From Nitrospira sp. KM1 (GTDB lineage: Bacteria; Nitrospirota; Nitrospiria; Nitrospirales; Nitrospiraceae): a stretch of DNA of 64,000 nt. The notes under the pieces were generated by a model, which saw nothing but the letters and a program-made list of their open reading frames with translations, was not told where the DNA came from and made no database searches. This document shows positions 14,724 to 45,579 of the stretch, one piece after another. Within the stretch, counting starts at the first letter, position 1, and each line of letters starts with the position of its first letter. Where the stretch lies: positions 1,550,001 through 1,614,000 of the forward strand of contig NZ_AP022671.1 in NCBI RefSeq assembly GCF_011405515.1, in the 5' to 3' direction. The translations under genes and the position numbers were made by a program.

Positions 14724-14978
14724 ATGGGACTCGAACCGAACTATATCATCGTGGATGGCCAGACCTTTAGCAAGGCAAAGTTGGCGCTGGACAACCATGT
14801 CTATAAGAACTGTCACATCGACGACTGCGATCTGTATTACAGCGGGGGGCAATACGAACTCCTCGATACCCATGTGACAAATTCCCGCCTGATTCTGAAC
14901 CATCCGGCCAAAGGTATGTATGCGGCCTTGCAGATTTTCAAGATGAAGTCGCCCAGCTCCAGAATCATTTCCGAATAA
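14724..14978 (+). CDS. Hypothetical protein
   Basis: This 84-residue protein starts MGLEPNYIIVDGQTFSKAKL. It has paired acidic-aromatic strands (NCHIDDCDLYYSGGQYELLD, then THVTNSRLILNH), suggesting a short pentapeptide-like or beta-helical fragment. There is no signal peptide. The frame is open from a TTG at 14676, but the ATG at 14724 fits the conserved-looking part better; neither start has a strong ribosome site. It is divergent from the lipoprotein gene and convergent with the amine oxidase. Function is unknown. Confidence 0.55.
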   Translation: MGLEPNYIIVDGQTFSKAKLALDNHVYKNCHIDDCDLYYSGGQYELLDTHVTNSRLILNHPAKGMYAALQIFKMKSPSSRIISE

Positions 14979-14982
14979 TCCG

Positions 14983-16332
14983 CTATTGCCCGCGGTATGA
15001 CACGCGGGACATCAATTGTTTGACCTCTGCCGCCGCACGAAATCCTGTTTCCACCGCACCATTCATGTACCCCTGCCAGCGCGTGCTGATGTGTTCCCCC
15101 GCGAACAGGATACGTCGATGCCGCCGGCCCAGTTGTTCGCGCAGGGTCGGATCGAACTCCGGCGTAAAGACGGCATACCCGCCGCAGGCCCATGGATCGT
15201 TCTCCCAGGTGATCACCCGGCTTCTCATCAATTGCGCATCGGCCGGGTGCAGCCACTCTAGCCTGGCTCTTATGCCCTGAGTCCGGCGATGGGACAGGAT
15301 ACGGCGGAGCGTGCCGCTTCCCCGGCCCCCCGCCATGAGGGTCAGAATCCCTGGCTGACCGGCCGATCCTTCATTTGCGTCCCAGATCGCACCGACCGGA
15401 CTGTCCGTGCCATACGCGCGCCCTCGCGCGTTGCTGTTCCAGAACCGGCGGTCGAATTGGAGCAGCGCTTTGGTCACTCGCCCGTACTTCAGGCTGGCGA
15501 TCGCTTTCGCCTGTTCTCTAGGCAACGCGGGCCGGATGCGGATCGCTCGCAGCGTGCTGGCGGGAAGAGCCAGCACCAAATAATCGCCTCTGGCGACAGA
15601 GCGGCGCCCTGTGTGATCCTGGATAGACACCCGAACGGATGCGCGATCTTGTTCGACCGCGACGACCTCGGAATCGAGATGCACCGCTTCGCCCAATTCC
15701 CCGGCCATCTTGTGCGGCAGCCGGTCATTCCCTCCCTCTATCCGGAACATCGCTTGTCGACCGGGAGAATCGCTTGCGAGTTGATCAATCAGCATGAGGA
15801 GAGACAACTCTTCGGGATCTGCGAGAAAGAATCCTCTGAGGCTACGGACGATCGCCCGGAGCGTCTTATCAGCCCGAATGTTGTTCAACCATTGTGCGAC
15901 AGAGCATGCGGCAATGTCCCTGACAGCCACACAGTTCCAGCGGTACTGCGCTGCCTCGTACTCTCTCACGAGTGGCGCCGCGGCTTCGGCAATCGCTTTC
16001 CACGCCCCGTCACCAGATAGAACCCTTGCCGTGCCGCCTGATCTCTCGAAGAGAGCAAAAGAGAATCCCCGACGCACGACTGGAGAGAGCGTCAGACCGA
16101 ACTCTTTCACCAATTGACGTATCTCTGTATGGGCATCATCGATAAACTCGGCTCCGGCCTCTGCATATTGACCGCTCGCAAACGTGTCTCGAACCGTCCA
16201 CACCCGCCCACCCACGCGCCCTCGCGCGTCAAAAACTGTCACCCTGAGACCGGACTTGGAGAGACGCACGGCAGCGGACAGCCCGGCCAAGCCGGCACCC
16301 ACGACAATGACAGAGACTGGTCGCATGCTCAT
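14983..16332 (-). CDS. FAD-dependent amine oxidase
   Basis: This 449-residue flavoprotein has the dinucleotide-binding motif VIVVGAGLAGLSAAVRLSKS and the following glutamate-equivalent region VFDARGRVGGRVWT, both typical of the monoamine-oxidase family. The C-terminal FAD-contact motif LFAGEHISTRWQGYMNGA is also intact. There is no signal peptide. It should oxidise an amine or a related substrate with oxygen or another acceptor. Substrate cannot be told, and neighbours give no hint. A second ATG at 16326 may be the true start. Confidence 0.88.
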   Translation of the reverse strand: MSMRPVSVIVVGAGLAGLSAAVRLSKSGLRVTVFDARGRVGGRVWTVRDTFASGQYAEAGAEFIDDAHTEIRQLVKEFGLTLSPVVRRGFSFALFERSGGTARVLSGDGAWKAIAEAAAPLVREYEAAQYRWNCVAVRDIAACSVAQWLNNIRADKTLRAIVRSLRGFFLADPEELSLLMLIDQLASDSPGRQAMFRIEGGNDRLPHKMAGELGEAVHLDSEVVAVEQDRASVRVSIQDHTGRRSVARGDYLVLALPASTLRAIRIRPALPREQAKAIASLKYGRVTKALLQFDRRFWNSNARGRAYGTDSPVGAIWDANEGSAGQPGILTLMAGGRGSGTLRRILSHRRTQGIRARLEWLHPADAQLMRSRVITWENDPWACGGYAVFTPEFDPTLREQLGRRHRRILFAGEHISTRWQGYMNGAVETGFRAAAEVKQLMSRVSYRGQ

Positions 16333-16427
16333 ATGCCCAGCCTACACGCACCTACCTCGCTAGGCTACTTGGCAGGTGGAGGAAGGGAGATGAACCCAAT
16401 GATAATTGAGACTCAGAAGAGAAGACG

Positions 16428-17684
16428 TTACTTAGAAATGGGAATATTTTCGGTTCGTTTGACGATTTCAATGGGTTGGAAGACGGGATCTTGAGCTCCT
16501 TTTGAAGATTCTGCTTCAATCCGCTGCAGAAAGGCGGGGGGACCGGTCACGGGAGCATAGCTCAGCGTCACGTCAACATCGAACGTCTTCGTATCTTTCG
16601 GAGTCGGAAAGGAGAATGTTTCGATGCGCAATTCCTCGGGCCTCAAGACAGTGTCCTCGAGCACCTTGACCGCTTCGAAATCGAATGGCGTGTTCTGCCC
16701 CTTGGCATCCTGATACGTCCGCCCATATACCCGCTTGTCAGAAAATACAGTTTTCAAGTTCTTGCCCTTGATATCGACATCGAGAATCACGCTAGCCCAA
16801 GCCGGATGAGTGGTCGGCAGATTGTGCGGCACGAGACTCTGGACCTTGACCGTCACCGTGGATTTGTCACCGTCGATGCTCGTCTTGACATCGAGCTTGG
16901 CGGCTTCCTGGCGAAGCTTCCCGATACGGCCAGGAAAGGTATGGTTGGCCACGGTGCGTTTCTTCTCCCCGTTGGCACTCTCGCCTGTTTGTTCGGGCAT
17001 GTGGCAGGACTGGCATTCTTTTCCCGCTTTGACGGCCTGACTCTGATCCCAGTTCCCGAGCAGATCATTCGCCTTGCCCAGATTCGCGGCGGAAGGCACC
17101 GATTGATGGCAGTTCAGACATAGATCGGATTTATGAAATAAACCGAGTTCCATAGACTGATGGGCCAGGTTTTGAGCGAAATCTTTGTACGGACCGTAGA
17201 GAATCTTGCTTCCCGGTGAGTCGTACTTGGGCTCAGGCGGCTGTTTCGTTCGATCGACTTGTTTGATCAAATGGCATTGCGCGCATGCCACCCCGTCCAT
17301 CTGGGGATCACCGGACTTTGCCTGATCGATGAATACTTGCACCTGTTCGGAAAATTCCCGCACATGCGGGGCGTGGCAACGGAAACACAAGGCCTTGTCC
17401 TTCCCTGCAGCGGAAGCCAGAAAGGCGTCGAGCGATGCCCGGAAAGCCGGAGAATGTATCGACTTTGACAGCGGAGACGTTTCCCACTCCTCGAAGACGC
17501 GTTCGTGGCAACGCTTGCATTTGCTGGAATTGGGAAACGCTTTCTCCATCGTGACCGGAGATTTACCGTCTTGCGCGAACCCTACGACATCCGCGAGATG
17601 GAACACGACCCAGGCGGTCAGAACCAAACCGGCCATGACGGCTGCGTAGACACCCCTGGAGTGGTGGCGACTGATGGGCATCAT
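16428..17684 (-). CDS. Pentaheme c-type cytochrome (c554-like family), paralog 1
   Basis: This 418-residue protein has an N-terminal membrane anchor or signal (GVYAAVMAGLVLTAWVVFHL) and five CxxCH heme sites: CKRCH, CFRCH, CAQCH, CLNCH and CQSCH, in the order typical of the cytochrome c554-like family. After the last heme comes a beta-rich C-terminal region of about 170 residues with no heme motif. It is the last gene of the nine-gene minus-strand operon and lies 10 bases downstream of a paralog with the same five-heme layout. It likely carries electrons between periplasmic partners. The donor and acceptor are unknown. Confidence 0.85.
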   Translation of the reverse strand: MMPISRHHSRGVYAAVMAGLVLTAWVVFHLADVVGFAQDGKSPVTMEKAFPNSSKCKRCHERVFEEWETSPLSKSIHSPAFRASLDAFLASAAGKDKALCFRCHAPHVREFSEQVQVFIDQAKSGDPQMDGVACAQCHLIKQVDRTKQPPEPKYDSPGSKILYGPYKDFAQNLAHQSMELGLFHKSDLCLNCHQSVPSAANLGKANDLLGNWDQSQAVKAGKECQSCHMPEQTGESANGEKKRTVANHTFPGRIGKLRQEAAKLDVKTSIDGDKSTVTVKVQSLVPHNLPTTHPAWASVILDVDIKGKNLKTVFSDKRVYGRTYQDAKGQNTPFDFEAVKVLEDTVLRPEELRIETFSFPTPKDTKTFDVDVTLSYAPVTGPPAFLQRIEAESSKGAQDPVFQPIEIVKRTENIPISK

Positions 17685-17694
17685 TGTGCTTGAA

Positions 17695-18993
17695 TCAAAT
17701 ATTCTTGGCGCGGTATGTCAGCATCCGCGGCTGCGTGTATTCGTCCAATATCGTGCGTGCGCTCTCTCGTTCACGGTCATTCCCCAACGTCGCGAGGTAT
17801 TTATCTTTTAATGCCGGTTCGGGCGCTGGAATCAAGGTATAACTCAACACCGCCTCAACCAATGCTGGCGTACTCCCGGCCGGCATCGAAAATGAGAACG
17901 GGACCTTTCGAGTGTTTCCACCCTTGATGAACGGATCAGGAATCGGGCCGCGCAAAATCTTCTCGAATGGCAAGCCGAAATGCTTTGTCTCCGTGGCCAG
18001 CACCTTTCCGTTCCCATCCTTGACGGTTATCGCAAGGAAGAATTGTTTCAGCACCGGATCTCCGTCCGGAAAACTATGTGGAAGACTGCCGATCTTTACC
18101 AATGCGGTTCCTTCAAGTCCATTTCCGGATTTCGCCGTCTCGATATCGATGCGGGGCATCCATTCGGCCTGAAGATTCCGATTCTTCAATAACGTGCCTG
18201 GAATGACCACGCCTCGAAACCAATGGCGCCCGATCGAACGGGTCATGGCGCCGCGTTTCGAGGTGGAACTTCCCGTCGAGGGTTCCATATGACAATCCTG
18301 ACAGATCGTTCCTTGTAAGATTTCCCCCGGTAACTCCTTCTGTGTGACATCCTTTACTTTGTCAAAATGACAGGAGGCGCAATAGTTGGCTCCTCGAAAC
18401 AACGAGGACTGCGCGGCCGGATGGACAAGATTCTCTTCGGGATCGGCATATGGTCCCTGCATGGTCTTTCCAGGCTCGATCTTGAATGTCGGTGGAGGCG
18501 CACCGGCGCTCTCGACGGATTTAATGAGGTGGCAAGAGGCGCACCCGATGCCTTCGACCTGCGGCTTACCCGCAAGAATCTGCCCGGTGATCTTTTCAGC
18601 GTACTGTGGAAATACGGTGGTGGACGGGACGTGGCAGGAAAGGCAGCGTTGTTGTTCGTCAGCTGTGGGAGCGGTCTGCATCCATACGCCGAGCACCGTT
18701 TTAAAAACTGGAGATTCGAGGGACGTACCGTGAAGCAGCGCCGCATCGACGCGCCCGAAGGTTTTTAAATCGGGCGTTTGCTCCCGAGCTCCTTTCCATT
18801 CTTCGTAGTGGCGGTCGTGGCATTGCTTGCAGTCTTCCGATCGAATGAACACCTTCTCAATGTCGTCCACCCAGGCAGGCGGGGATGACTCCTCGGCTTT
18901 CTGCGCGGTAGCCTGATCGTGATACATCACGTGGCCCACCACCGCCGCCGCCACGAGCAGCCCGACGAACATCCACCGGTGTATCTGACGCAT
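17695..18993 (-). CDS. Pentaheme c-type cytochrome (c554-like family), paralog 2
   Basis: This 432-residue protein starts with a signal or anchor (MFVGLLVAAAVVGHVMYHDQ) and has five heme sites: CKQCH, CLSCH, CASCH, CASCH and CQDCH. Spacing and flanking residues (CKQCHDRHYEEW, CASCHLIKSV, CQDCHMEP) match those of the downstream gene, so the two are tandem duplicates. Both keep a long beta-rich tail. Both are translated from the same operon as an NxrC-like heme-b protein and a PDZ protein, pointing to a multi-component periplasmic electron pathway. Confidence 0.85.
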   Translation of the reverse strand: MRQIHRWMFVGLLVAAAVVGHVMYHDQATAQKAEESSPPAWVDDIEKVFIRSEDCKQCHDRHYEEWKGAREQTPDLKTFGRVDAALLHGTSLESPVFKTVLGVWMQTAPTADEQQRCLSCHVPSTTVFPQYAEKITGQILAGKPQVEGIGCASCHLIKSVESAGAPPPTFKIEPGKTMQGPYADPEENLVHPAAQSSLFRGANYCASCHFDKVKDVTQKELPGEILQGTICQDCHMEPSTGSSTSKRGAMTRSIGRHWFRGVVIPGTLLKNRNLQAEWMPRIDIETAKSGNGLEGTALVKIGSLPHSFPDGDPVLKQFFLAITVKDGNGKVLATETKHFGLPFEKILRGPIPDPFIKGGNTRKVPFSFSMPAGSTPALVEAVLSYTLIPAPEPALKDKYLATLGNDRERESARTILDEYTQPRMLTYRAKNI

Positions 18994-19005
18994 GAGCTGA
19001 AGTCC

Positions 19006-19470
19006 CTAGTCCCGCTTGCATCCGACAAAATGAAAATTCACGCCCCATCCCACTGGATCGCCGGGATCTGCCGGTTCGTAAGTCCCGACCGTGAAATTGC
19101 ATTCTCTCATGGCCTTCTTGATTGCACGACCGAAATCCACCATGGTTCTGATTTCGGTCTTGTCGACTTCTTTAATCACCGATCGGACTTTGATTCCTGC
19201 ATAATCGGCACGGGAGTTTCCGATTACTTCGAAGACGGCGACACCTTGCGGCCGCTGCAGCTTGAGCTCCTTTTGAATTTCTTCATCGACGTCCCCTACC
19301 ACCACGCCGAATTCCTCTCCCAATTGCGCGGCCTCATCGAGCGTCATCGGGGTGTCGTCCTGTGCATAGATGGCAACGAAATACCCCTGGATCGCGGCAC
19401 TGGTCGCTAAAACCATCAGCCATAGAAAAAAGGCCCTTCGAATCTGAAGGGCCTTGTCGAAGATATTCAT
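19006..19470 (-). CDS. Membrane-anchored PDZ-domain protein
   Basis: This 154-residue protein has a basic N-terminus (KALQIRR) followed by a hydrophobic segment (AFFLWLMVLATSAAIQGYFV) and a PDZ domain (QRPQGVAVFEVIGNSRADYA, then GIKVRSVIKEVDKTEIRTM). It is probably periplasmic and acts as an adaptor for the two pentaheme cytochromes encoded 12 bases downstream. The start is unsure: the ATG at 19470 has no ribosome site, and a terminator-like hairpin (19430-19455) lies inside its first codons. An ATG at 19416 (MVLATSAAIQG) is the alternative. Cysteines at NFTV-preceding and C-terminal positions could pair. Confidence 0.7.
   Translation of the reverse strand: MNIFDKALQIRRAFFLWLMVLATSAAIQGYFVAIYAQDDTPMTLDEAAQLGEEFGVVVGDVDEEIQKELKLQRPQGVAVFEVIGNSRADYAGIKVRSVIKEVDKTEIRTMVDFGRAIKKAMRECNFTVGTYEPADPGDPVGWGVNFHFVGCKRD
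19430..19455 (-). terminator. Terminator-like hairpin inside the 5' coding region of the PDZ gene
   Basis: Read on the minus strand, a 10-base perfect stem (AAGGCCCTTC pairing GAAGGGCCTT) with a six-base loop is followed at once by TTTTTTCTATG. This has the form of an intrinsic terminator. It lies 46 bases after the NxrC-like gene and within the first 15 codons of the PDZ frame. It may partly end transcription from upstream, or act as an attenuator for the cytochrome genes. Confidence 0.55.
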
Positions 19471-19524
19471 GTGCGTCGTCTGCGCATATTCCGATGGTGG
19501 TCTATCATGATCCCCGTTCGATGG

Positions 19525-20358
19525 TCACAGTTTTTTGGCGACCGGATCGATCGACAACTGAAACCATGGCGCCACGGCTTTCTGCCCGTTTCGTTCCTTG
19601 TTTTCGCCGTTCCAGACTGCAAAGGAAATCGTCTGCACTCTTCCCGGAATCAGCTTTGCCTCATTCTCCTGCTCCTCACCGACCAGGGGACGTCGCATGA
19701 CCACGCGCCACACCCCATCCTTCCAGGTCGCTTTGCCTTGTACACGCCCCTGTTTCTCCTTCGTGGTCAAGGTGCTGAATCCACCTCCAATCAAGTCCTC
19801 CACGGAAGAAATGCGTCGAGGGATTACTTCGAAGGTCCGGACGCCCTCCCGTTGCTTCTCGGAACTTCGGGCCGCGCGGCGATCGATGTCGCTTTGCCAG
19901 TCGGCTTTCCAGTGCCAGATATTGATGTAATGATCCAGCTGTCCCATGCAGAAAAACGCGGGAGCGTCGCCAAGCGGAAGCCCGATTGCAACTCCATCCC
20001 TAAACGTACCAGGCGTCAGCCGATCGTTTTTCGTGTTGTCCTGCCACTCGAGCAAAAAGGCGATATCGGTTCCGTCGTGGAGCGCACGCACGGTCAACGC
20101 ACGGGCCGTCGGTTCCGGCCATACAGGCCGGGTAATGATCTGTCCGCTCAGAGGAAGAGTCATTGGAGTCACTTTGATCCATGCGGCGTCATCCGGAGCC
20201 GACGGCAGGGAACCGTCCACAAGCTGGGCCCGGATAATCATGCCCTCGGAACTGACCAGAGGAATACCGAGCCCACCAAGGATTCCTGCGGTGACCAAGA
20301 TAAGGGAGAACAGAACGAGAAGCGGACGGGACGCAGTCTTCGTCGTCTTGCTCGCCAT
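19525..20358 (-). CDS. NxrC-like heme-b (ethylbenzene dehydrogenase gamma-related) protein
   Basis: This 277-residue exported protein has a signal segment (RPLLVLFSLILVTAGILGGL) and a domain shared with the NxrC gene at 26049. Both have LPLSGQ(I/L)IT-P near the start, a CMGQ motif followed by NIW-W--(D/E)WQ, then SSVEDL---GFSTLTT, and near the end W-VV--R. In ethylbenzene dehydrogenase a Met and a Lys bind the heme b. Here the Met of CMGQ is kept, but the C-terminal position that reads VVVKR in NxrC reads VVMRR. The ATG at 20358 has an AAAGGA site. The frame runs open further upstream but that part does not resemble the family. Confidence 0.75.
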   Translation of the reverse strand: MASKTTKTASRPLLVLFSLILVTAGILGGLGIPLVSSEGMIIRAQLVDGSLPSAPDDAAWIKVTPMTLPLSGQIITRPVWPEPTARALTVRALHDGTDIAFLLEWQDNTKNDRLTPGTFRDGVAIGLPLGDAPAFFCMGQLDHYINIWHWKADWQSDIDRRAARSSEKQREGVRTFEVIPRRISSVEDLIGGGFSTLTTKEKQGRVQGKATWKDGVWRVVMRRPLVGEEQENEAKLIPGRVQTISFAVWNGENKERNGQKAVAPWFQLSIDPVAKKL

Positions 20359-20443
20359 ACTGAATCCTTTGCCGACCGACGCGACCGGAACGAATGTCAC
20401 AATACCATACACCCGCATCGGCCGATTGGACGGAACGAGGCGG

Positions 20444-21724
20444 TCATGAAAGCTTGACCCGCCGAATTTTATTCTCGCCGCGTTCGCAGATGTACAAATG
20501 GCCTTGCGAGTCCAAAGCCAATCCGACTGGCGAATTGACCACGGCATCCACGGCCAGGAGTCCGTCTCCATGCTTGAGAGAACCCGCAGACTCCTTGGCG
20601 ACGAATCGGGCTGCACCGCACCCGCCCATATTCTTGTCTTCGTAGCCGCTGTCACCGTTGCCGGCAACCGTACTGATCAGGCCGGTCATGGCGTCCACTT
20701 TTCGTACACGGTGATTCATTGTATCGGAGATATACAAATTATCCTGCGCGTCGAACACAACAGCTTCGGGGGCATGCAGCATGACGCGCGTGGCAAGCTT
20801 GTCGTCGCCGTCATACCCGTACCGACACACCCCTGCAACGGTAGAAATGATGCCGGTGGCGCGGTCGACTCTTCGTACGCGATTGCTACCCTTGTCGACC
20901 ATGGTGACATTGCCCTTTCCGTCCACGGCAATCCCCACCACATCGTACAATCGAGCTTCAAGGGCCGGTTTTCCGTCATCAAGATACATCGAAAGATCCA
21001 TGCCGTCCGAACACACGGGCATCAGCCACCCGTGATCGTCACTGAAATCGATTCCGATCGCGTCCCCGGACAGGACCACCAGATTTCTGGCGACCAACGG
21101 CTGTTCGCGGGCATCGTCCTCGGCTGTCCAATGCCCTGCGATGGTGGTCACTTGACCCGTGCGCGGGTCGAAGCGACGAATTCGGTGAGCCTGCGTGTCT
21201 GCAATGTACATGACATCTTCGCTGTCGAAGGCCATGGCCGCCGGCCACGTCAGATTGACCTCAAGCGCCGGCCCGTCGCCGTTGAATCCATGTTGGCCGG
21301 TCCCCACCACCGTCGTGATAATCCCGGTTTGATGATCGATTTTTCGGATCCGGTTGCTGCCTGAATCGCAGATGTAAAGATCGTTGCGCGAATCGAATGC
21401 GACATCAAGCGGAAGGTAGAGACCCGCCTCCCCACACGGACCTTCGTCGCCGCTGTAGCATGTCTCACCAATGCCGGCAAAGTTATGGAGGGTTCCTTCC
21501 ACAAGACTGACGCGCCGGATGCGGTCTGACCCGGATTCGGCAAAATAGAGCCAGCGCTCGTGATTGTCGAGGGCAGCGTGGTGCGGAAGAGGAATGCCGG
21601 CCTTGACCGCCCGTTTGCCGTCACCGGTGCTGCGCGCTTTGCCGTTGCCGGCAAACGTCTCAATATAACCGCTCGCGAGTTGTACGTCCGTTTCCATATT
21701 ATGAAGATCGAGTCGGTTCGTCAC
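20444..21724 (-). CDS. NHL-repeat beta-propeller protein
   Basis: This 426-residue protein consists of NHL repeats. Blades such as [39 protein letters not shown] and [20 protein letters not shown] recur about six times. There is no obvious signal peptide. The GTG start at 21724 overlaps the TGA of tatA in a GTGA arrangement, which suggests coupled translation; an ATG at 21697 is an alternative. Six-bladed NHL propellers bind protein or ligand. In this operon it may bring together redox or export components. The exact role is unknown. Confidence 0.8.
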
Positions 21725-21993
21725 GCGTGCGGAACCGGTTGAGCCGCCGGCTGTTCCACCACCGAAGCCGACTGGGACGGCGTGCCGGGAATGGCCTGTG
21801 GCGGCGCTGAGGCCTGCTGTTGAGCGGCCTGCGCTTCCGCCTCGATGGCATCGGCTTCATGCACGGACTTTTTAAAACCCTTGATCGCCTTCCCAAGTCC
21901 TTCTCCAAGCTGCGGAAGTTTTCCGGCGCCGAAGATGACCAGCACGATAAAGAGGATGAGGATCAACTCTGTAAAACCAAGACTCCCAAACAT
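21721..21993 (-). CDS. tatA: Twin-arginine translocase subunit TatA
   Basis: This 90-residue protein starts [20 protein letters not shown], then the conserved [20 protein letters not shown] hinge and amphipathic helix, followed by a Pro/Ala-rich tail. TatA forms the pore of the Tat pathway, which exports folded, cofactor-bearing proteins. A GGAGGAAC site precedes the ATG. No tatB or tatC is nearby. Its place between a TPR protein and an NHL protein in a heme-protein operon suggests a dedicated extra TatA copy. Confidence 0.92.
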
Positions 21994-22017
21994 GGCGTGT
22001 TCCTCCGTGTGGGTAAA

Positions 22018-22824
22018 TCAGGATCCGATGTGATCTTTGTTCCGCTTGGCAAACCGCTCCTTGAGACGTTGACGCGCCTGCTCAGCCTGTTCGAACATCT
22101 TACATTTGTCGTATACGCTGATCAGGTTGTAATACGCCAACGGTTCGTCGGGATTCTGCTCGACGGCATCTTCCATCACTTTGATCGCCAGATCCGTTTT
22201 CTTATGATTGAGCGCAAGTTCCATGAGCTTGAAGCTTGCCTCGAGATGCTTGGAGTCCAACTCCAGCGTCCGGAGGTAGCATTGAATCGCCACGTCGATA
22301 GTGTTGTAATCCGACACTTGCGGGTTATCGAGTTCGACGTAGACGCCTGCCAAATTGTACCACGCGATCGGGTCTTCCGGGGTGATCTCCACGAGCCGTT
22401 CGTAGTATCCCTTGGCTTCCATGAATTGTTTCTTTTCGGCGTACAGGCGACCGAGATTGAAGAGCGCCAGCACGTCGTACTGGAAGACATCCAAGGCATG
22501 CCTGAATTCCGCCTCGGCTTCGTCCGCCATATTCTTCGTGGCATAGATCGTTCCGAGATTGGAATAGTACATCGCAAGCGAGCGGTTCATTTCCGAGCGC
22601 AACCCTTCCGCCATTTCGATGGATTTCTTCACCTCGACCAATGCGTCGTCCAACCGACCTTTGCTGAAGTACAGCTCTCCGAGCCGACATCGGGCCTGAA
22701 AATCATCAGGCTCGGTCGACAGCAGCTTTTCGATCTCCGCGATCTCTTCATCCGGTGCCAACGGTTGGTCACCCGGATCTACTGCGGCATGGGTCGGTTC
22801 TGAAGGAACAGACGATTCATTCAT
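22018..22824 (-). CDS. TPR-repeat protein
   Basis: This 268-residue protein has about five tetratricopeptide repeats (ARCRLGELYFSKGRLDDALV, YYSNLGTIYATKNMADEAEA, ALFNLGRLYAEKKQFMEAKG, AWYNLAGVYVEL). There is no signal peptide or membrane segment, so it probably acts in the cytoplasm as a scaffold. The start at 22824 (MNESSVPSEP) follows AAAGGTG; a longer frame to 22842 is less likely. It sits 24 bases before tatA in the same operon and may help assemble or escort exported redox proteins. Confidence 0.8.
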   Translation of the reverse strand: MNESSVPSEPTHAAVDPGDQPLAPDEEIAEIEKLLSTEPDDFQARCRLGELYFSKGRLDDALVEVKKSIEMAEGLRSEMNRSLAMYYSNLGTIYATKNMADEAEAEFRHALDVFQYDVLALFNLGRLYAEKKQFMEAKGYYERLVEITPEDPIAWYNLAGVYVELDNPQVSDYNTIDVAIQCYLRTLELDSKHLEASFKLMELALNHKKTDLAIKVMEDAVEQNPDEPLAYYNLISVYDKCKMFEQAEQARQRLKERFAKRNKDHIGS

Positions 22825-22856
22825 GACAAAACACCTTTGCAAGAAAGTGGTACGCG

Positions 22857-23978
22857 TTATACATGTCCCCCAACCAATGATTCGGGTGTCCCTACGACCG
22901 GAGTCTGCCTCGCGGAAACAGAATTGAGGACATGCCGACGATAGCGATCCATGGTCAGCAACATGACCCCTAACACAACCATGAGCGTCAGATTGGAGTA
23001 CAGCAGGGCATATCCCGCAATGAACATCAGCCCCAGACCGTACCCTGCCAGTCGCCCCATCGTGAGCAGTTTAATGACCGTGTATGACCAACAGATCAGT
23101 CCCGCCATATAGAGCGCAAACGGAAGATAGAATGTGTAGCCCATTCCAAATTGAAAGATCCATCCGATGCCGTCCGCTCCCTTCCGGATATTGGTGGCCA
23201 ATGCAGGATCATAGCGATTCAGCAAGAAATCCAGGAAGAACAGGGCGGAAAAAATCACTCCGGCGGAACCCCAAAACCAAATGGCCCGTGTGCGTTGTCG
23301 CTGATTTCTTGAACGGAATGAGACGCCGCGTCCGTAGGCCCAAAAAACCAGGATGCTCGCCAACACCATCAGCGCTTCTCCGCCTCGATGCGCCTCGTAG
23401 ACCAGAGGTGGCGCGGCAACGCTTCCCGAAAAACTGTAAAAGGTCGAGACGATCTGATAATACAGCCATCCGGAAATCCCCAGCAGATATGTCACTCCCA
23501 ACAGCCGCTGAGCCCGATCATGATGCATCGACAGATATTCGCTCATTAATAACACGACCGAGCACAGTGCCACGGTGTTGTAGATCGCGGAGCCCAGCAT
23601 GGTCGGCGGCACGAAGAGAAATCCGATCGTCAGCAGCAATAGCAGCGAAATGCAGGGAATGATCAATCGGTTGAGTCCGGTCCACCCGCGGCTACCGAGC
23701 CTGTTGATCATCCCGACGCCCAGACCTAGAAAAAGAAGAATGGCGACCGCATTCAGCAGCCATTGTCCAATTTCTGTCAACGCCGTAAAGGTCGGAATGA
23801 TCCATTGGTGGTCGGCCGCCAGCTTGCTCAGGTGCATGCCAAGACGGGACACCAATCGATAGAGAATCAGCTCCAAAAAGGCGACCAAGAGGACGAGCTT
23901 GATCGTATATTGGAACAACAGCGGTTGATCGCTCAGCTTGCCGGTCAACCGATCCGCTGTCGCAACCAGTGTGGACAC
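22857..23978 (-). CDS. Polytopic membrane protein, unknown
   Basis: This 373-residue protein has about nine or ten hydrophobic segments, for example YTIKLVLLVAFLELILYRLV, WLLNAVAILLFLGLGVGMIN and LIIPCISLLLLLTIGFLFVP. Conserved-looking polar residues within membranes (EYLSMHHDR, YEAHRGGEALMVLA) could bind heme or quinone, but no known signature is visible. The GTG start at 23978 has a strong GGAGG site. It is the only large membrane protein in the nine-gene operon and would be the natural membrane anchor or quinone site. I do not recognise the family. Confidence 0.75.
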   Translation of the reverse strand: MSTLVATADRLTGKLSDQPLLFQYTIKLVLLVAFLELILYRLVSRLGMHLSKLAADHQWIIPTFTALTEIGQWLLNAVAILLFLGLGVGMINRLGSRGWTGLNRLIIPCISLLLLLTIGFLFVPPTMLGSAIYNTVALCSVVLLMSEYLSMHHDRAQRLLGVTYLLGISGWLYYQIVSTFYSFSGSVAAPPLVYEAHRGGEALMVLASILVFWAYGRGVSFRSRNQRQRTRAIWFWGSAGVIFSALFFLDFLLNRYDPALATNIRKGADGIGWIFQFGMGYTFYLPFALYMAGLICWSYTVIKLLTMGRLAGYGLGLMFIAGYALLYSNLTLMVVLGVMLLTMDRYRRHVLNSVSARQTPVVGTPESLVGGHV

Positions 23979-24043
23979 GTTGTATCCTCCGTATGACTCC
24001 GGCGTCCGCGGCGCGATGCCTTAGTGCTCGACGATGGTCATGT

Positions 24044-25825
24044 TCAGGTGCGGGCAGCCGGCAAGACGCGGCCCTCTTCCGCCTTCGCCCGTGCGATGTA
24101 GAGCAACCCATCCGCCATCGAGTAATTGAACGGAAGTTCGCACACCACACCGCTGACCTTTTCATAGACGTGCTGATACAGGCGTTCCGCCTGATCCGGC
24201 GTCATGCCGTCCTGAACCTCATAAAAAAATCCCAGACTCAGGTCCTCGGCCGACGGCCGCATGATTCGACGGATTCCATAGCCGCCGGGATCGCTCATGA
24301 TCGGAGCTTCTTTTTCCAGATCAAACAAACACGGCTGACAGGAGAACCCATAGGATTCGTGCAGCTTCTTGTTGTCGACAATGAAATTCATCGTCTCCAG
24401 CGCTTCTTCCTCTTTTTCGGTGGGGAAGCCGACGATGATGTAGCAATGGACGGCGATTCCGAGGTCGATGCAGTCATTCGTGATTCGCCGTACCCATTCC
24501 TGCTGAATACCCTTCTTCATGAAATCCATGATGCGCTGATTGAAGGATTCGAGACCGAAAACGATCTTGAGACACCCGGCGTCCCGCATTGAGGCCAAGA
24601 GTTCCCGGCTCAGATGCTTTTCAAAACGCATCTCGCAGGTCCACTTGATGTCGAGATGTCGGTCGACCATCTGCTGACAGAGTCGCTTGGTTGGCGACAA
24701 CGCGAAACATTCGTCGGTGAAGAAAAAGCTTCGGACTCCGTACCGCTGCTTCAGCCACTCCAATTCTTCGATGGTACGGCCCGGATCCTTTTGCCTGAAG
24801 TTCTGGTGATCGAGTGTAAGGGCGCAAAACGCGCAATCTTTGTAGTAGCAGCCCCGAGAGAACTGGACCGGAAGAACGGGCTCGGGCGAGAGATACCGAC
24901 CTAGAGGAAATCCGTCATAGTTGGGTGCGGGCAGCTGGTTGATATTTTCCGAATAGAACGGCTGATTGACGTGAATTTTCCCGTTTTGGCGATAAATCAG
25001 GTTTGGAACCTTACTGAAGTCTTTCTTTCCGGCCATCTGGTTGACCAGTTCGAGCAGAGCGGTTTCTCCTTCAAAGACCACGATATCGTCTGTCAAATCG
25101 AACAAGCTCGGACAACGTCGGATGTTATCAACCAATCGCGTGAAGATACTTCCGCCGATCGTCAGATGGATATCGGGAGCCGTTTCTTTGATCAGCCGGC
25201 ACAGAGTCAGTCCGGGTATGATCTGAGACGTGGCGGTAATGGAAACGCCGATCAGCTCAGGATGATCCTGAAGGATCGATCCAAGAAACCGTTCGCGAAA
25301 CAATTTGATATAGGGATTCTGCTGTTCGTCGCGAATGACCTTCATGAGGTCTTTGGACGAATAGATAGAATACGTGCTGAATTGGTTGTCGACGACGGTT
25401 AGCCGGGTCGGAAAATAAATCGTGGAAATGACTTCCAGCCATTTATCGATCAGAAACAAACTTTCGCGGTACGCCTCCATGTCGTAGAAGCCCTCACCCC
25501 GAAGTGTTTCCTTGGCCGGCTCGATACGATCGATCAGATATGGAAACCGATCCAGAGATTCGCCAACACGTGCCAAGTGTTCAGCGCTGCCCGGACCGGT
25601 TTCACCTGCCCGGCTGCGTTCGAGGCGTCTCTGTGCGTCGACCAACTCCTGGAAGAGATCAACCCCATATGACTTGGTGACGACATGGTCCAAGAGTTCG
25701 ATGCCCAGGTCACGCTGAGCCACATCGGTCACACCCCCCCGAGCAAGAAACCCTGTTAGTGAGGGCAGACTGAGATAGGGTTGAGAAGGGTGCCACGTCG
25801 GAGGAAACAGGAGAGACACTTTCAT
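24044..25825 (-). CDS. B12-binding-domain radical SAM protein
   Basis: This 593-residue enzyme has an N-terminal cobalamin-binding-like region (MKVSLLFPPTWHPSQPYLSL through GVSITATSQIIPGLTLCRLI), then a radical SAM core. The cluster motif is SRGCYYKDCAFC, a C-x4-C-x2-C spacing found in part of the B12-radical SAM group in place of CxxxCxxC. FFFTDECFALSP and IVFGLESFNQRIMDFMKKG follow as usual for the barrel. Such enzymes methylate or rearrange unactivated carbon, in lipids, cofactors or peptides. It is the first gene of the nine-gene operon, so its product may be a modified cofactor or peptide needed by the system. Confidence 0.85.
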   Translation of the reverse strand: MKVSLLFPPTWHPSQPYLSLPSLTGFLARGGVTDVAQRDLGIELLDHVVTKSYGVDLFQELVDAQRRLERSRAGETGPGSAEHLARVGESLDRFPYLIDRIEPAKETLRGEGFYDMEAYRESLFLIDKWLEVISTIYFPTRLTVVDNQFSTYSIYSSKDLMKVIRDEQQNPYIKLFRERFLGSILQDHPELIGVSITATSQIIPGLTLCRLIKETAPDIHLTIGGSIFTRLVDNIRRCPSLFDLTDDIVVFEGETALLELVNQMAGKKDFSKVPNLIYRQNGKIHVNQPFYSENINQLPAPNYDGFPLGRYLSPEPVLPVQFSRGCYYKDCAFCALTLDHQNFRQKDPGRTIEELEWLKQRYGVRSFFFTDECFALSPTKRLCQQMVDRHLDIKWTCEMRFEKHLSRELLASMRDAGCLKIVFGLESFNQRIMDFMKKGIQQEWVRRITNDCIDLGIAVHCYIIVGFPTEKEEEALETMNFIVDNKKLHESYGFSCQPCLFDLEKEAPIMSDPGGYGIRRIMRPSAEDLSLGFFYEVQDGMTPDQAERLYQHVYEKVSGVVCELPFNYSMADGLLYIARAKAEEGRVLPAART

Positions 25826-25884
25826 ACGGCAACTCTACCGAGTGAATTGAAAAATAAGATGAATTCTCGTAAGATATATCTAGT

Positions 25885-25914
25885 TTTATACACTCCTAAA
25901 CGCCACAATTGCAA
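25885..25914 (-). promoter_or_regulatory. Promoter of the nine-gene redox operon
   Basis: Minus-strand TTGCAA (25909-25914), an 18-base spacer and TATAAA (25885-25890) lie about 60 bases upstream of the radical SAM gene. The -10 matches consensus at five of six positions. The same TTGCAA-N18-TATAAT form occurs at 30126-30155 ahead of the HExxH gene. Confidence 0.65.
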
Positions 25915-25966
25915 CCCTAGATGCCTCTCAGAAGTTCGTTTCGGATCTTTTCAATCCAAAAAAGAA

Positions 25967-25993
25967 AAGCCCCAGTTCGATGAACTGGGGCTT
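25967..25993 (-). terminator. Rho-independent terminator of nxrC
   Basis: A 12-base perfect stem (AAGCCCCAGTTC with GAACTGGGGCTT) around a three-base loop is followed, reading leftwards, by TTTTCTTTTTTGG. It ends the nxrC transcript 56 bases past the stop codon. Confidence 0.9.
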
Positions 25994-26048
25994 CACTTTT
26001 GGTAGCCTTCAAACCTTTGGGGGTCGAAAGCAATTCTTCCAGGTTAGC

Positions 26049-27002
26049 TCACGGAAGCTTGAGCGTAAACCAGGTTGAAAGCGCCTTCATGCCGTTACGT
26101 TCGATATTGTTGCCGTCCCACACCGCAAATGCGATGGGCACAGACGCGCCACCTTTGAACTGGGTATCATTCGCATCGCCCGTCTCAAGAGACCGCTTGA
26201 CAACAACGCGCCAGGTTGGCCCTGAGAACCCACCACCTTTGACTGACCCTGCCGGTTCCCATACACCGTTTCCGATCACATCCTGATGGGCCTGAGTCGT
26301 CAAGGTGCTGAACCCGTTGGCATTGAGGTCCTCGACCGAACTCACGCGGAGAGTCGGATCAGACATAATGTTGCCGGACCAGATACCGGGGTTGAAGGGG
26401 CCAAGGCTGCGACCAATTCGATCCGGATAGGTTACACCGCCAGCTGGCTCTTCAAAATAATAGTCCCAGAAAATTCCGGGATATTGATCGTCCACGTCCC
26501 AAATTCCTGCGCTATCCTTACCGAGATCCTTCTGCCACTCTGCGTTCCACCGCCAAATATTGGTGGTTCCACCTGACTGACCCATGCATTGAAATGGGGG
26601 GGCTCCCGACGTATTGACTGGGAACATGACGGCTACCTGATCGCGAAAATCTTGAGGACCGATCGTCGTGTCGTTCTTGGTCTGATCGTTCCATTCCACG
26701 CGCAAGCCGAGTTCCTTGCCATTGGTCATGGCCTTCACAAACACCGACTTGACTGAAATGTTCGGGTGCATCGGCGTAGTGATCAACTGACCACTCAGCG
26801 GCACGATAACGCCAGGCACACTCTCCCAGATGGGATTTGCCCCATCCATTGGAATAGAACCCTTGACGGCCTTGGCCGGAATCGTCACCGGCTGGCTGAC
26901 AGCCAACGGTACCTGCCCGATTGTTAGCATGATGCCAACGATCAGGGCAGAGAGAAGAATGCCAAACACCACATGCTTATTGTGTGTCTGCACTACTCTC
27001 AT
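26049..27002 (-). CDS. nxrC: NxrC, nitrite oxidoreductase gamma-subunit candidate (heme b)
   Basis: This 317-residue exported protein has a signal segment (HVVFGILLSALIVGIMLTIG) and the domain of heme-b gamma subunits related to ethylbenzene dehydrogenase. IVPLSGQLITTPMHP, CMGQSGGTTNIWRWNAEWQ, SSVEDLNANGFSTLTTQ and WRVVVKRSLETGD are its main blocks. In the family a Met and a Lys bind the heme; the Met of CMGQ and the Lys of VVVKR are candidates. It would pass electrons from the catalytic nitrite-oxidising dimer to cytochrome c. A GAGGAGGGC ribosome site is present and a TorD-like chaperone gene lies 99 bases upstream. The nxrA and nxrB genes are not in this window. Confidence 0.78.
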   Translation of the reverse strand: MRVVQTHNKHVVFGILLSALIVGIMLTIGQVPLAVSQPVTIPAKAVKGSIPMDGANPIWESVPGVIVPLSGQLITTPMHPNISVKSVFVKAMTNGKELGLRVEWNDQTKNDTTIGPQDFRDQVAVMFPVNTSGAPPFQCMGQSGGTTNIWRWNAEWQKDLGKDSAGIWDVDDQYPGIFWDYYFEEPAGGVTYPDRIGRSLGPFNPGIWSGNIMSDPTLRVSSVEDLNANGFSTLTTQAHQDVIGNGVWEPAGSVKGGGFSGPTWRVVVKRSLETGDANDTQFKGGASVPIAFAVWDGNNIERNGMKALSTWFTLKLP

Positions 27003-27101
27003 GGACTATGCCCTCCTCTCAATTAAGTTATTAAAAAACAATGTGACCCAAAATGACTGCTGAAAACATGAAAGCGAACAGCCCGGATAAATTCGGGTTT
27101 G

Positions 27102-28067
27102 TTAGGCCGTCCCGACCGGCCCTCCATCCTCCTTGTCTTTATCCTTCTGATCCATAAAATTCTGCGCACCGGTTTCATTGAGCAGCAGGCTGAGCTCATT
27201 CCCCTGATCCTGCGCTCCGCATTCATATGTCTGGCCTTCCGGAGCATTGAATGTGGCCGGTCGATAATCTGACTCCGAGTAGGGCTGTGGGGTGACGTTC
27301 AGGAAGGCGGCTTCAAAATCCATTAGTTCAGCTGTCATATCTGCCACAAGCTTAAAGAGGCCGGAATCGGCTTTCTTCACCAGCATGCGACAGAACAACG
27401 GCACCCAACGTCCGATATGATTTTTTACAAATTTCTTTTGCGCCTCGACGACGATCTGCGTCTTGTCCGCTCCATCATGGCAACGGGAATAGGATTCTTT
27501 GTAAGCGAGAAAATGCATGAATTCGAACTCGACGCTTAGATGATCGAGTCGCTCATGAATATCCTTTGACAATTCGACGCCGAACGCCTTGTAAAAACCG
27601 GCAATATCGCCCATGACATGCGATTGGGCAAACACGTGATCGTTGCCGAATAGCGTTTCGTACGGGGGACAGTCAAGGGTAATGACGTTGCTGAATACTC
27701 GGCGATGCTCGGCTTGAAGATCAGTCAGTTGCCAATTAACACATTCAGAAGCCACTAGCTTCTCAATCTGATCGAACAATTTCCGCATCGCGGTAAGCTT
27801 CTGCTTCGCCCGTTCTCCACCGGCTCCATCAAGAACCTTTTCTAAACCCTCAACGGCGGCCCGCCCATCCTCTACGAATTCTCCGCATTGAATATAATCG
27901 AGAAATTCGTCGTCCTCAGGATAAAGGAGGCTCCATGACACGAGCAGGTAGAGCTTGCTACGATTGAGAGCACGTTCAACCGCTGGAGAGTCTTTGATCG
28001 CTGTCGGCGTGGGGATGACTGCAGTGGCACTATTGGAAGTGTTTTGCACCGGCTGTTTACTCGTCAT
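27102..28067 (-). CDS. TorD/NarJ-like molybdoenzyme chaperone
   Basis: This 321-residue cytoplasmic protein is mainly helical and matches the TorD/DmsD chaperone layout: SKLYLLVSWSLLYPEDDEFL near the N-terminus, then LQAEHRRVFSNVITLDCPPY (position of the conserved Y/F-x2-LF region), and YETLFGNDHVFAQSHVMGDI. These proteins bind a molybdoenzyme subunit or its signal peptide until the cofactor is in. Paired with nxrC it probably serves assembly of nitrite oxidoreductase. It is transcribed from a near-consensus promoter at 28153-28181. Confidence 0.8.
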   Translation of the reverse strand: MTSKQPVQNTSNSATAVIPTPTAIKDSPAVERALNRSKLYLLVSWSLLYPEDDEFLDYIQCGEFVEDGRAAVEGLEKVLDGAGGERAKQKLTAMRKLFDQIEKLVASECVNWQLTDLQAEHRRVFSNVITLDCPPYETLFGNDHVFAQSHVMGDIAGFYKAFGVELSKDIHERLDHLSVEFEFMHFLAYKESYSRCHDGADKTQIVVEAQKKFVKNHIGRWVPLFCRMLVKKADSGLFKLVADMTAELMDFEAAFLNVTPQPYSESDYRPATFNAPEGQTYECGAQDQGNELSLLLNETGAQNFMDQKDKDKEDGGPVGTA

Positions 28068-28152
28068 AATGAGAATCAGCTCCTCGGTTTAACCTGTTGC
28101 CGCGAATGATTTCTCCGGCATGTGCGGTCAAACCTCTGGCACAAGCTGGAGT

Positions 28153-28181
28153 ATGATAGGTAATGGTTAATGGGATGTCAA
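28153..28181 (-). promoter_or_regulatory. Promoter of the TorD-like/nxrC unit
   Basis: Minus-strand TTGACA (28176-28181), a 17-base spacer and TATCAT (28153-28158) form a near-consensus sigma-70 promoter about 85 bases before the chaperone start. A strong constitutive-looking promoter fits a high-level NXR component. Confidence 0.75.
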
Positions 28182-28297
28182 GCATGTTCTCGGGTTGCAG
28201 AAAATATCGCATTAACTAAAGGTATTTCCAATTTATTTTCATCTCGCCACCTGCTTTTTGAATGCTCATTCAGGATTTGGATCACCTCCATTTGACC

Positions 28298-28888
28298 TCA
28301 TCGACCGGTCAATGATCTTTCCGGAGTCACTCGGATAGCAATATGATCATTCACCGTCTTGCAGATTTGCTCGCAGATACCACACCCAACGCACTGATCT
28401 TGATCAACAATCATCCGTTGTGTATCGAAATCCATGGACAATGCATCCGTCGGACACTTGGATGCGCACGCATGGCAGCCTTGCCCCGCTGTGCAGAGCC
28501 TGAAATTCACGACGGCCATTCCCATTCTGACAGCCTCGCGGCTCACGGGAAGGAGAGCATCCGTGGCGCAGGCTGTAATGCAGGGAAAATCGTCACAGAG
28601 ATAGCAGGGTATTTCATCCGGGAAGATGACGGGAGTCGCATTCTCGTGATGAAGGACGAGTGATCCGTATGGACAGGCCTTGACGCAATCACTGCATGCC
28701 GTGCACCGTTCGAGGAACAGCATTTCCTCAACCGCTCCCGGGGGACGGAGCCAATCCTTCCGAATCGCTGGAACGGGCTTCTCTGGAACGGCTTCCGAAT
28801 GTTTGGAATATTCCCGAGCAGCTTTCGCAACGGACAGCACAGAGTCTTTGAGAAAATCTCTTCGCCCGTATTTCGGATCAGTGGTCAT
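28298..28888 (-). CDS. Tat-type 4Fe-4S ferredoxin (NapG/NapF-like)
   Basis: This 196-residue protein starts MTTDPKYGRRDFLKDSVLSV, with an RR-x-FLK twin-arginine-like export signal. Cysteine clusters CTACSDCVKACPYG, CYLCDDFPCITAC, CTAGQGCHACASKCP and CVGCGICEQICK would bind up to four [4Fe-4S] clusters. The layout resembles NapG, which passes electrons in periplasmic nitrate reductase systems. It lies between the TorD-like and HExxH genes and could be an electron carrier linked to nitrite oxidation or reverse electron flow. The frame is open to 28948, but the Tat-like motif supports 28888. Confidence 0.8.
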   Translation of the reverse strand: MTTDPKYGRRDFLKDSVLSVAKAAREYSKHSEAVPEKPVPAIRKDWLRPPGAVEEMLFLERCTACSDCVKACPYGSLVLHHENATPVIFPDEIPCYLCDDFPCITACATDALLPVSREAVRMGMAVVNFRLCTAGQGCHACASKCPTDALSMDFDTQRMIVDQDQCVGCGICEQICKTVNDHIAIRVTPERSLTGR

Positions 28889-29000
28889 GCGAAAGGTTGA
28901 TGAACAGGACGCTTGCACAAAACGACCGGCGTCGTGGGCCATCCACATCGAAACAGGACATGGTCAGCAGAAAAATCCATAAGTCCACAGGGCGACAATA

Positions 29001-29999
29001 TCACATGACCCCATCGGCACGGAGCTTGTAGACCTCAACACAGCGATCACAGGCGCCGAATTCGACATCCCACCCGGGATGATTTTCCCGGATGAAGTCC
29101 AGCACATATGTTTCCATTCTCGTTCCGAGATCCTCAACCCATGAGTAGGTGGGGAAACGGCAGAGCGGGCACGGAAATCCGGGCATAAGCATGACCTTAT
29201 TTTCCGTCTCTGGAACCTCGCCGCCTTCAACGTCGACGGCCCGATCCATGACCCGCAACGTATCCGTCGCCATCTCGATCAATTCAGAGTGGGTGAAAAA
29301 GCCCGTTTGCCATAATCCTTCGAACACAGATTTCAGCTGAGGAGCCGGAATTTTTCGGTACCACGACCGGAATTCCTTAAAGCGATCCTCCTTAGTCAGC
29401 ATCGGCTCCTTGCCTGCTTGCATCAGACGGCTGTCGACACTAAGACTCCAGAGAATGCGATACCGTTGAAGAATGAGGGTTTCTTCACCCGGATTTTGTC
29501 CGACTTTCGTGTCGGGATCGTACGCAAAGTGCGGCCCCAGCATATCGGAAATGTGCATCAATTCATGTCGACAATAGCGGGTCAGTGCCGGATCGTAAAA
29601 CCGGCGCGGAATAAGCTTGATGCCGACTCCCTTGAGACCTTTCTCTTCAAACTCTTTCGCCAGTTCGTGCTCCACCGATCCCCACTTACGGAGAATATCG
29701 ACGCCTTCCTGATCCTCTTTCAGCACGCCTTTCACCAATACGATGCCGACACGGTCCTTGAGATCGGGATATTCATTGAAGGCATCCCGTATGATTTCCG
29801 AAAATCCCCAGGTCCCGAAGAGATACTGATAGAGTCGTTTGAACTCACCCTCACGATCATCAAGGGTGAATTTCTCATAAATGGGATCGGCGAGTTCGTG
29901 AAACTCTTTATAGTAGGTGGGATCGCCTTCCCGTTCGGTTTTCTCGACGAAAGAGTCAATGACTTCTTGTAGCAATGCCGGCTGAAATCGTAGTTCCAT
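29001..29999 (-). CDS. Unknown protein with HExxH motif and zinc-ribbon tail
   Basis: This 332-residue soluble protein has no signal peptide. Residues 145-149 read HELMH, a zinc-metallopeptidase-type HExxH, inside RYCRHELMHISDMLGPH. A C-terminal region has CPLC (277-280) and CDRC (317-320), likely a zinc or iron site. The N-terminal 140 residues are helical and charged. I do not recognise the family. It is the first gene after a TTGCAA-N18-TATAAT promoter and heads the minus-strand run ferredoxin, TorD-like chaperone, nxrC. It may act in maturation or turnover of the NXR system, but this rests on position only. Confidence 0.7.
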   Translation of the reverse strand: MELRFQPALLQEVIDSFVEKTEREGDPTYYKEFHELADPIYEKFTLDDREGEFKRLYQYLFGTWGFSEIIRDAFNEYPDLKDRVGIVLVKGVLKEDQEGVDILRKWGSVEHELAKEFEEKGLKGVGIKLIPRRFYDPALTRYCRHELMHISDMLGPHFAYDPDTKVGQNPGEETLILQRYRILWSLSVDSRLMQAGKEPMLTKEDRFKEFRSWYRKIPAPQLKSVFEGLWQTGFFTHSELIEMATDTLRVMDRAVDVEGGEVPETENKVMLMPGFPCPLCRFPTYSWVEDLGTRMETYVLDFIRENHPGWDVEFGACDRCVEVYKLRADGVM

Positions 30000-30125
30000 A
30001 TTTTAGATCCCCTGCCTCCGCAATCACGGGCTGGAGCGGACATCCTCACCCGAATGATTCGGCAAATCCGCGCTGACTGCGGCTTGACTTGATGACTGCG
30101 CTTCTCTTACGATCCTTGAAGCCAA

Positions 30126-30155
30126 ATTATACCGGTCGCAAACAGCCATTTGCAA
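30126..30155 (-). promoter_or_regulatory. Promoter of the HExxH protein gene
   Basis: Minus-strand TATAAT (30126-30131, perfect match) with TTGCAA at 30150-30155 and an 18-base spacer. It has the same unusual -35 and spacer as the promoter at 25885-25914. Confidence 0.65.
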
Positions 30156-30216
30156 TGAAGCGTGTTGCTTGCACCATACCGAGTAACGACTTATCACCTC
30201 AAAATAGGTAACTGTA

Positions 30217-45531: not shown

Positions 45532-45579
45532 ATTTACCCTCATCTCATACATCAAGAGTTAGCAACGTATCTTAGGCAA

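Follow-up and report, generated by a model that had tools for sequence, protein, structure and literature searches.

A conserved nine-gene operon of Nitrospirales with a radical SAM enzyme, TatA and two pentaheme cytochromes as a candidate accessory locus of nitrite oxidoreductase

The 64,000-nucleotide stretch of Nitrospira sp. KM1 analysed here (contig NZ_AP022671.1, positions 1,550,001 to 1,614,000; below, the window) carries on its minus strand a block of nine genes, which runs from a radical SAM enzyme through a polytopic membrane protein, a TPR protein, a TatA paralogue, an NHL beta-propeller, a second soluble NxrC-like protein (NxrC2) and a PDZ-like protein to two pentaheme cytochromes c, A and B. 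The order of these genes is kept across the Nitrospirales, and the block is restricted to genomes of the lineage bearing nitrite oxidoreductase (NXR), the enzyme that is the source of most nitrate in nature. In the reading that we prefer, with a probability of roughly 55%, the nine genes constitute a Nitrospirales NXR accessory operon for biogenesis and export of the enzyme and for electron handover. The link to NXR is strong; the functions of the individual proteins, their topology and what the radical SAM enzyme acts on are inferred.

All nine open reading frames (ORFs) were found at the positions given in the initial annotation of this DNA, and Pfam and NCBIfam searches of the ORF list recovered the predicted domains: Radical_SAM (2e-18), EB_dh, the heme-b gamma domain (2.7e-29), TatA_B_E (1.3e-16), NHL, TPR and Cytochrome_C554, as well as a weak PDZ_6 match below the cut-off. 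Both cytochromes have a Cytochrome_C554 domain and five CXXCH motifs apiece, in agreement with the earlier description of the pair as c554-like pentahemes. For the NxrC-like gene we accepted the ATG start yielding 277 aa, the 380-aa ORF starting from TTG being judged too long. Residue conservation was assessed in length-filtered sets of 60 to 92 sequences, and all statements on hydrophobic N-termini are based on a crude hydropathy scan.

Gene order was compared in two sets of loci. The near loci are the best 80 of 198 relatives, picked by similarity of the radical SAM enzyme, which favours near relatives; 55 of the 80 had at least 9.5 kb after the radical SAM gene, or 5 kb before it, and could be tested. 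The distant loci (n = 12), from divergent genera of three families, were selected by the presence of the membrane protein. The test scored ordered matches, not intact reading frames. All nine genes were in order in each of the 55 testable near loci and in each of the 12 distant ones, some of the latter being cut by the end of the contig or region, and hence the genes are indeed kept together in relatives, which had been proposed as a check of the operon. The four genes upstream of the block were in place in 49 of 55 loci. The flanks of L018, L020 and L030 contain neither torD nor the main gamma gene, that of L065 the gamma gene only, in L022 and L025 approximately 5.5-6 kb separates the gamma gene from the radical SAM gene, and in G208, a closed genome, 2.7 million bases lie between the radical SAM gene and the four-cysteine gene of the upstream block. 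Thus, the upstream block is separable from the nine genes, which form the firm unit.

The nine-gene block also looks like a transcription unit of its own. A single promoter had been proposed ahead of it, and the site at 25914-25885 coincides exactly with the proposed upper boundary. Among 71 aligned intervals between the gamma and radical SAM genes from three families (that of the window and those of loci where both genes are present and lie 100-500 apart, 100-700 in the distant loci), the form TTGN3-N18-TATAA was retained in 68, with a spacer of 18 bases every time, and the remaining three have variants of the TATA box. A generic scan of 14900-30300 gave neither promoters (13 vs 10.0, sd 3.4) nor terminators (17 vs 14.9, sd 3.8) above shuffles and did not list the operon promoter, hence the case for this promoter is one of conservation rather than of consensus match. 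The hairpin in this interval of the window has 13 pairs followed by a T tract, and a similar GC-rich hairpin with a T tract was seen by eye in a 27-row alignment. Upstream, the four-cysteine gene has a similar promoter site (TTGCAA-N18-TATAAT, 30155-30126), and torD has its own promoter-like site at 28181-28153. Inside the block, a terminator-like hairpin (19430-19455) falls within the first codons of the PDZ gene; it was found in 34 of 69 near loci, while among the distant loci five of 12 passed a looser test and seven had none. Thus, transcription of the last three genes may be in part independent of that of the others.

The survey of distribution covered 295 Nitrospirota genomes, 98 of them from the order Nitrospirales (counted from listings), with the E-value limits for nxrA, nxrB and the radical SAM enzyme chosen to exclude paralogues. 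The membrane protein is present in 97 of the 98 genomes of the order and in one of the 197 other Nitrospirota; the radical SAM enzyme, in 96 and none, respectively (E<=1e-130); the four-cysteine protein, in 96 and one, the latter being the same outsider, G034. Matches to nxrA were found in 81 genomes of the order and matches to nxrB in 70. Outside the order, 12 genomes have NxrA-like proteins of just 39-42% identity, and in these neither the membrane protein nor the four-cysteine protein was found; nxrB matches occur in 11 outsiders, ten at 49-54% identity and G034 at 71%.

In G034, the four-cysteine gene is split between two contigs: C41 (locus L145) has its beginning, together with the C-terminal part of nxrB (70-71% identity), torD (35%) and nxrC (45% to nxrC1), and C53 (L126) has the remainder, a ferredoxin gene and a gene related to that of the membrane protein (24-25% identity, E 8.5e-11); the ends of the two contigs overlap, repeating one short stretch. 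The gene order differs from that of the Nitrospirales, and the genome search did not find nxrA, the genome being 77% complete. Since the draft assembly has 2% contamination, a contig may be foreign.

The neighbours upstream are genes of the main NXR gamma subunit, a TorD-type chaperone and a NapG-like ferredoxin, hence the block belongs to an NXR locus; association of nxrC with TorD and a NapG-like ferredoxin is also noted in the available part of PMC8115096. A sigma-54-type response regulator and a PAS/Cache histidine kinase adjoin the cluster (window 31315-35933). The initial annotation regarded the block as self-contained and without a catalytic subunit, and this view has to be abandoned, since the NXR alpha and beta subunits are encoded elsewhere in the same genome, and the gamma subunit and TorD directly upstream. 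Three nxrA genes are located outside the window, at approximately 2445 kb, 2318 kb and 1124 kb, and all three begin with the motif SRRQFLK of twin-arginine translocation (Tat). The coordinates of all features are given in Table 1.

Table 1. Genes and signals of the nine-gene operon and of the upstream unit (window coordinates)
Feature	Coordinates	Strand	Basis
Pentaheme cytochrome c B	16428..17684	-	five CXXCH, Cytochrome_C554
Pentaheme cytochrome c A	17695..18993	-	five CXXCH, Cytochrome_C554
PDZ-like protein, small, exported	19006..19470	-	PDZ_6 below cut-off, hydropathy scan
NxrC2, second soluble NxrC-like heme-b gamma protein (nxrC_1 of N. moscoviensis)	19525..20358	-	EB_dh, ligands, mass
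NHL beta-propeller, N-terminus not hydrophobic	20444..21724	-	Pfam, hydropathy scan
TatA paralogue	21721..21993	-	Pfam/NCBIfam
TPR protein, N-terminus not hydrophobic, probably cytoplasmic	22018..22842	-	Pfam, hydropathy scan
Polytopic membrane protein, 373 aa, without known family	22857..23978	-	ORF, family and structure searches
Radical SAM enzyme, probably B12-binding, CX4CX2C	24044..25825	-	ORF, domain/family searches
Operon promoter, TTGCAA-N18-TATAAA	25885..25914	-	conserved form in aligned intervals
Terminator hairpin between upstream gamma gene and operon	25966..25994	-	terminator scan
Main NXR gamma subunit gene (nxrC_2 of N. moscoviensis), upstream unit	26049..27002	-	EB_dh, mass
TorD-type chaperone, upstream unit	27102..28067	-	family search
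NapG-like 4Fe-4S ferredoxin, upstream unit	28298..28948	-	family match below curated cut-off
Four-invariant-cysteine protein (CPLC...CDRC), without family, upstream unit	29001..29999	-	family search, conservation

Several further genes related to NXR were observed in this genome. The nxrA gene at 1124 kb is fused in frame with nxrB into an ORF of 1527 aa (G000:C1:1123725-1128308; L141:5725-10308), where NxrA lacks approximately 48 last residues and NxrB the first few. An nxrA fragment of 166 aa with the Tat motif, probably a gene remnant, lies near 1870.7 kb (L142:9618-10118). EB_dh genes occupy only four loci of the genome, two of them here, one at 43759-45555 in the window and one at 3216 kb, and the only soluble NxrC-type genes are those at 19525-20358 and 26049-27002; PMC6606698 names a membrane-anchored alternative gamma type, to which the EB_dh loci at 43759-45555 and 3216 kb correspond, judging by their context. 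The window segment 43759-50023 encodes a diheme cytochrome c with EB_dh (an alternative NxrC), c-type cytochromes and a cytochrome bd-like protein; alt_nxrC_2 and a bd-like oxidase are discussed in the accessible part of PMC6606698.

NxrC2 has two features of a gamma subunit, an EB_dh domain above the Pfam cut-off and the Met and Lys ligands of heme b. Its Met138 (60 of 60 sequences) and Lys260 (59 of 60, with one gap) align with Met155 and Lys305, which ligate heme b in NXR-C of Kuenenia (PMC8387239, seen in part). In N. moscoviensis, NxrC2 corresponds to nxrC_1 (NITMOv2_3617, 30.8 kDa), and the main gamma subunit to nxrC_2 (NITMOv2_3624, 34.2 kDa), both masses matching the published ones. 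In the expression data that the consulted part of PMC6606698 provides, nxrC_1 has 354 reads per kilobase per million (RPKM) vs 20,365 for nxrC_2, with a genome median of 97.6, the two mappings differing in stringency. Thus, nxrC_1 is expressed, but far below the NXR stoichiometry, which favours helper roles over that of a stoichiometric subunit.

If, instead, NxrC2 took the place of the main gamma subunit in a minor part of the NXR pool, it would open a second electron outlet, passing electrons to the pentahemes and the membrane protein, for example for reverse electron transport, with the cytoplasmic gene products involved in maturation of this outlet. We consider this alternative possible, if rather doubtful. 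It is consistent with the retained heme-b ligands, with the hydrophobic N-termini fit for export in both cytochromes and NxrC2, and with pentaheme A, where five histidines outside the CXXCH motifs are invariant in 79 of 79 sequences, and hence all five hemes may be bis-His, typical of electron transfer. The expression of nxrC_1, low yet above the median (PMC6606698, same part), could also be accommodated, although a higher level would be expected of outlet proteins. At the same time, the radical SAM enzyme, TatA, TPR and NHL proteins would be left unexplained, and the membrane protein is no bis-His cytochrome b, since a single histidine is conserved among its 89 sequences.

Pentaheme B is less uniform: three of its spare histidines are conserved in 77 of 77 sequences, one in 75 of 77, and two, at positions 77 and 107, in 70 of 77. 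Weak similarity links it to the selenoprotein MccSep and to 5ze8, a pentaheme c552, which would make it a relative of cytochromes with a possibly catalytic heme. This would fit a block co-inherited with NXR and serving another trait, such as a cofactor, a lipid or nitrosative stress, as would the separability from the TorD/gamma block (in 6 of 55 loci the genes upstream are not arranged as usual) and the matches of the radical SAM enzyme to lipid and cofactor enzymes, all below the cut-off. This explanation seems improbable, as NxrC2 sits inside the block, the co-occurrence with the NXR lineage is near-complete, and the G034 relative of the membrane protein is found beside pieces of nxrB, torD and nxrC. 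We also considered whether one of the nine could be a counterpart of the Kuenenia NXR-T and dropped this candidate, since NXR-T is a monoheme protein and no monoheme cytochrome is encoded here.

The best relatives of the radical SAM enzyme are B12 enzymes; its own B12-binding match (1.1e-6; 28.9 bits) is below the Pfam cut-off of 32.1. The usual radical SAM motif is CX3CX2C, and here it is CX4CX2C in 92 of 92 sequences. The best family scores were to TIGR03975 (1.7e-45) and the methyl-coenzyme M reductase methylase (2.7e-16); for TIGR03975, a C-methyltransferase of ribosomally synthesized and post-translationally modified peptide maturation, 155.6 bits did not reach the curated cut-off of 281.85. 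As a long shot, the enzyme might place a post-translational modification (e.g. C-methyl) on a Nitrospirales NXR subunit or its heme partners. Were this so, nitrite oxidation in Nitrospirales would require a B12-dependent maturase, in analogy to the methylation of methyl-coenzyme M reductase. The CX4CX2C motif was also seen in two tandem radical SAM paralogues at 886-890 kb (L144:8844-10808 and 10950-12851).

The membrane protein matches no Pfam or NCBIfam family, its weak hits being at the chance level. Its structure was predicted from 27 sequences (mean predicted local distance difference test score of 66) and then from 51 (75.5), the second model having 10-11 long helices. A Foldseek search of PDB gave no match at E<=0.001, and the best PDB comparison (VIA Z 8.8, root-mean-square deviation 5.1, 190 aligned) is in the range of unrelated helical proteins; as such comparisons yielded common helical arrangements alone, we claim no fold. 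A cytochrome b or NarI-type anchor was rejected, since the only conserved histidine is H49, and the helices in the 89 sequences contain no conserved histidine pair.

Two localization claims had to be revised. The operon was thought to bring its own export pore; it has a single TatA-type gene, and both tatC genes of the genome are outside the window (612 kb and 1633 kb), hence this is not a complete Tat translocon, where tatA, tatB and tatC would come together. Likewise, the module had been described as periplasmic, with scaffold proteins, which is doubtful for the TPR and NHL proteins, as these have no hydrophobic N-terminal segment and are probably cytoplasmic. Overall, the nine genes, the conserved promoter and the order kept across Nitrospirales stood, and the self-contained module with a pore of its own did not.

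In the proposed role as an NXR accessory operon, NxrA would fold with its cofactors in the cytoplasm, aided by TorD and the NapG-like ferredoxin, and would be exported by the Tat system together with NxrB. The extra TatA, to which the Tat signal of NxrA is suited, may add export capacity for the very abundant NXR. The radical SAM enzyme, presumably scaffolded by the TPR and NHL proteins, would mature an NXR-related protein or cofactor, and the membrane protein, with its likely ten helices, would dock or assemble the exported enzyme at the membrane. In the periplasm, NxrC2, the PDZ protein and the two pentahemes may form a low-abundance complex for assembly or electron handover.

Several observations weigh against this role. 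Seventeen of the 98 genomes of the order, most of them drafts, have the membrane protein and no nxrA match, contrary to a strict link; G110 lacks an nxrA match though it is a single contig, and has an nxrB match. Multicopy nxr genes are reported to assemble badly in the available text of PMC12342949. The pentahemes and NxrC2 look like electron carriers rather than assembly factors, TatA could act on Tat substrates of any kind, the radical SAM enzyme is below every curated family cut-off searched, and the low-expression argument covers one gene of the nine and fits a side pathway as well. The loci of anammox and Nitrospina NXR, as described in the accessible part of PMC3578206, list TorD, NxrC, an alternative NxrC and a bd-like oxidase, and, apart from the gamma type, none of the nine is named there among the genes common to Nitrospina and Kuenenia; thus the operon would not be needed for NXR generally. 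Finally, our literature search found no functional data on the nine proteins and no work tying anammox NXR to a radical SAM enzyme; NXR, Nitrospira and radical SAM were met jointly only in an unrelated viral metagenome study.

For the building and export of NXR, a very abundant periplasmic molybdoenzyme of Nitrospira, the nine-gene unit offers specific candidates, be it for maturation, export, docking at the membrane or handover of electrons, and a putative modification of NXR by the radical SAM enzyme is checkable by mass spectrometry.

The initial annotation knew of no named system with this gene set. The cluster has indeed no name, but it was published in 2025 as NITMOv2_3614-3631, conserved in and diagnostic of nitrite-oxidizing Nitrospirales, with NxrC, TorD, proteins of unknown function, two pentahemes and a two-component system (PMC12342949, as far as available). 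The block and the upstream genes map onto this region (TorD being NITMOv2_3625), which has two pentaheme cytochromes; the window contains two NxrC genes, TorD, two pentahemes, and the sigma-54 regulator with the histidine kinase, and all thirteen genes are present, in order, in locus L023 of N. moscoviensis (NZ_CP011801.1). The same text refers to 'several proteins of unknown function', the radical SAM enzyme being unmentioned in its main part, and the sections consulted contain neither the split into transcription units, nor the heme ligands, nor the outgroup cluster, which come from the present analysis. Thus, the cluster is already known, and the mechanism and most of the added points are absent from the portions of the literature covered; new here are the apparent transcription unit with its separability, the NxrC2 ligands, the pentaheme A histidines, the NxrA Tat signal and the outgroup relative.

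The Kuenenia NXR (PDB 7b04) is similar in that both NxrC proteins are related to its NXR-C and have the same heme-b ligands; in contrast, the block has no counterpart of its NXR-T, a monoheme cytochrome c of four helices, and its alpha, beta and gamma genes are together in a 15-gene cluster (PMC8387239, in the part available), unlike the arrangement here. With B12-binding radical SAM C-methyltransferases (TIGR03975, TIGR04014 and others) our enzyme shares its best family scores, differing in the CX4CX2C motif and in that all scores are under the cut-offs. The EB_dh gamma domain and the TorD-type chaperone family are shared with periplasmic type II DMSO reductases, that is, ethylbenzene dehydrogenase and its relatives, for which we know of no accessory operon with a radical SAM enzyme, TatA and pentahemes. 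As a molybdoenzyme accessory locus, this is a variant of unusual composition, in which the radical SAM enzyme is the member of most interest.

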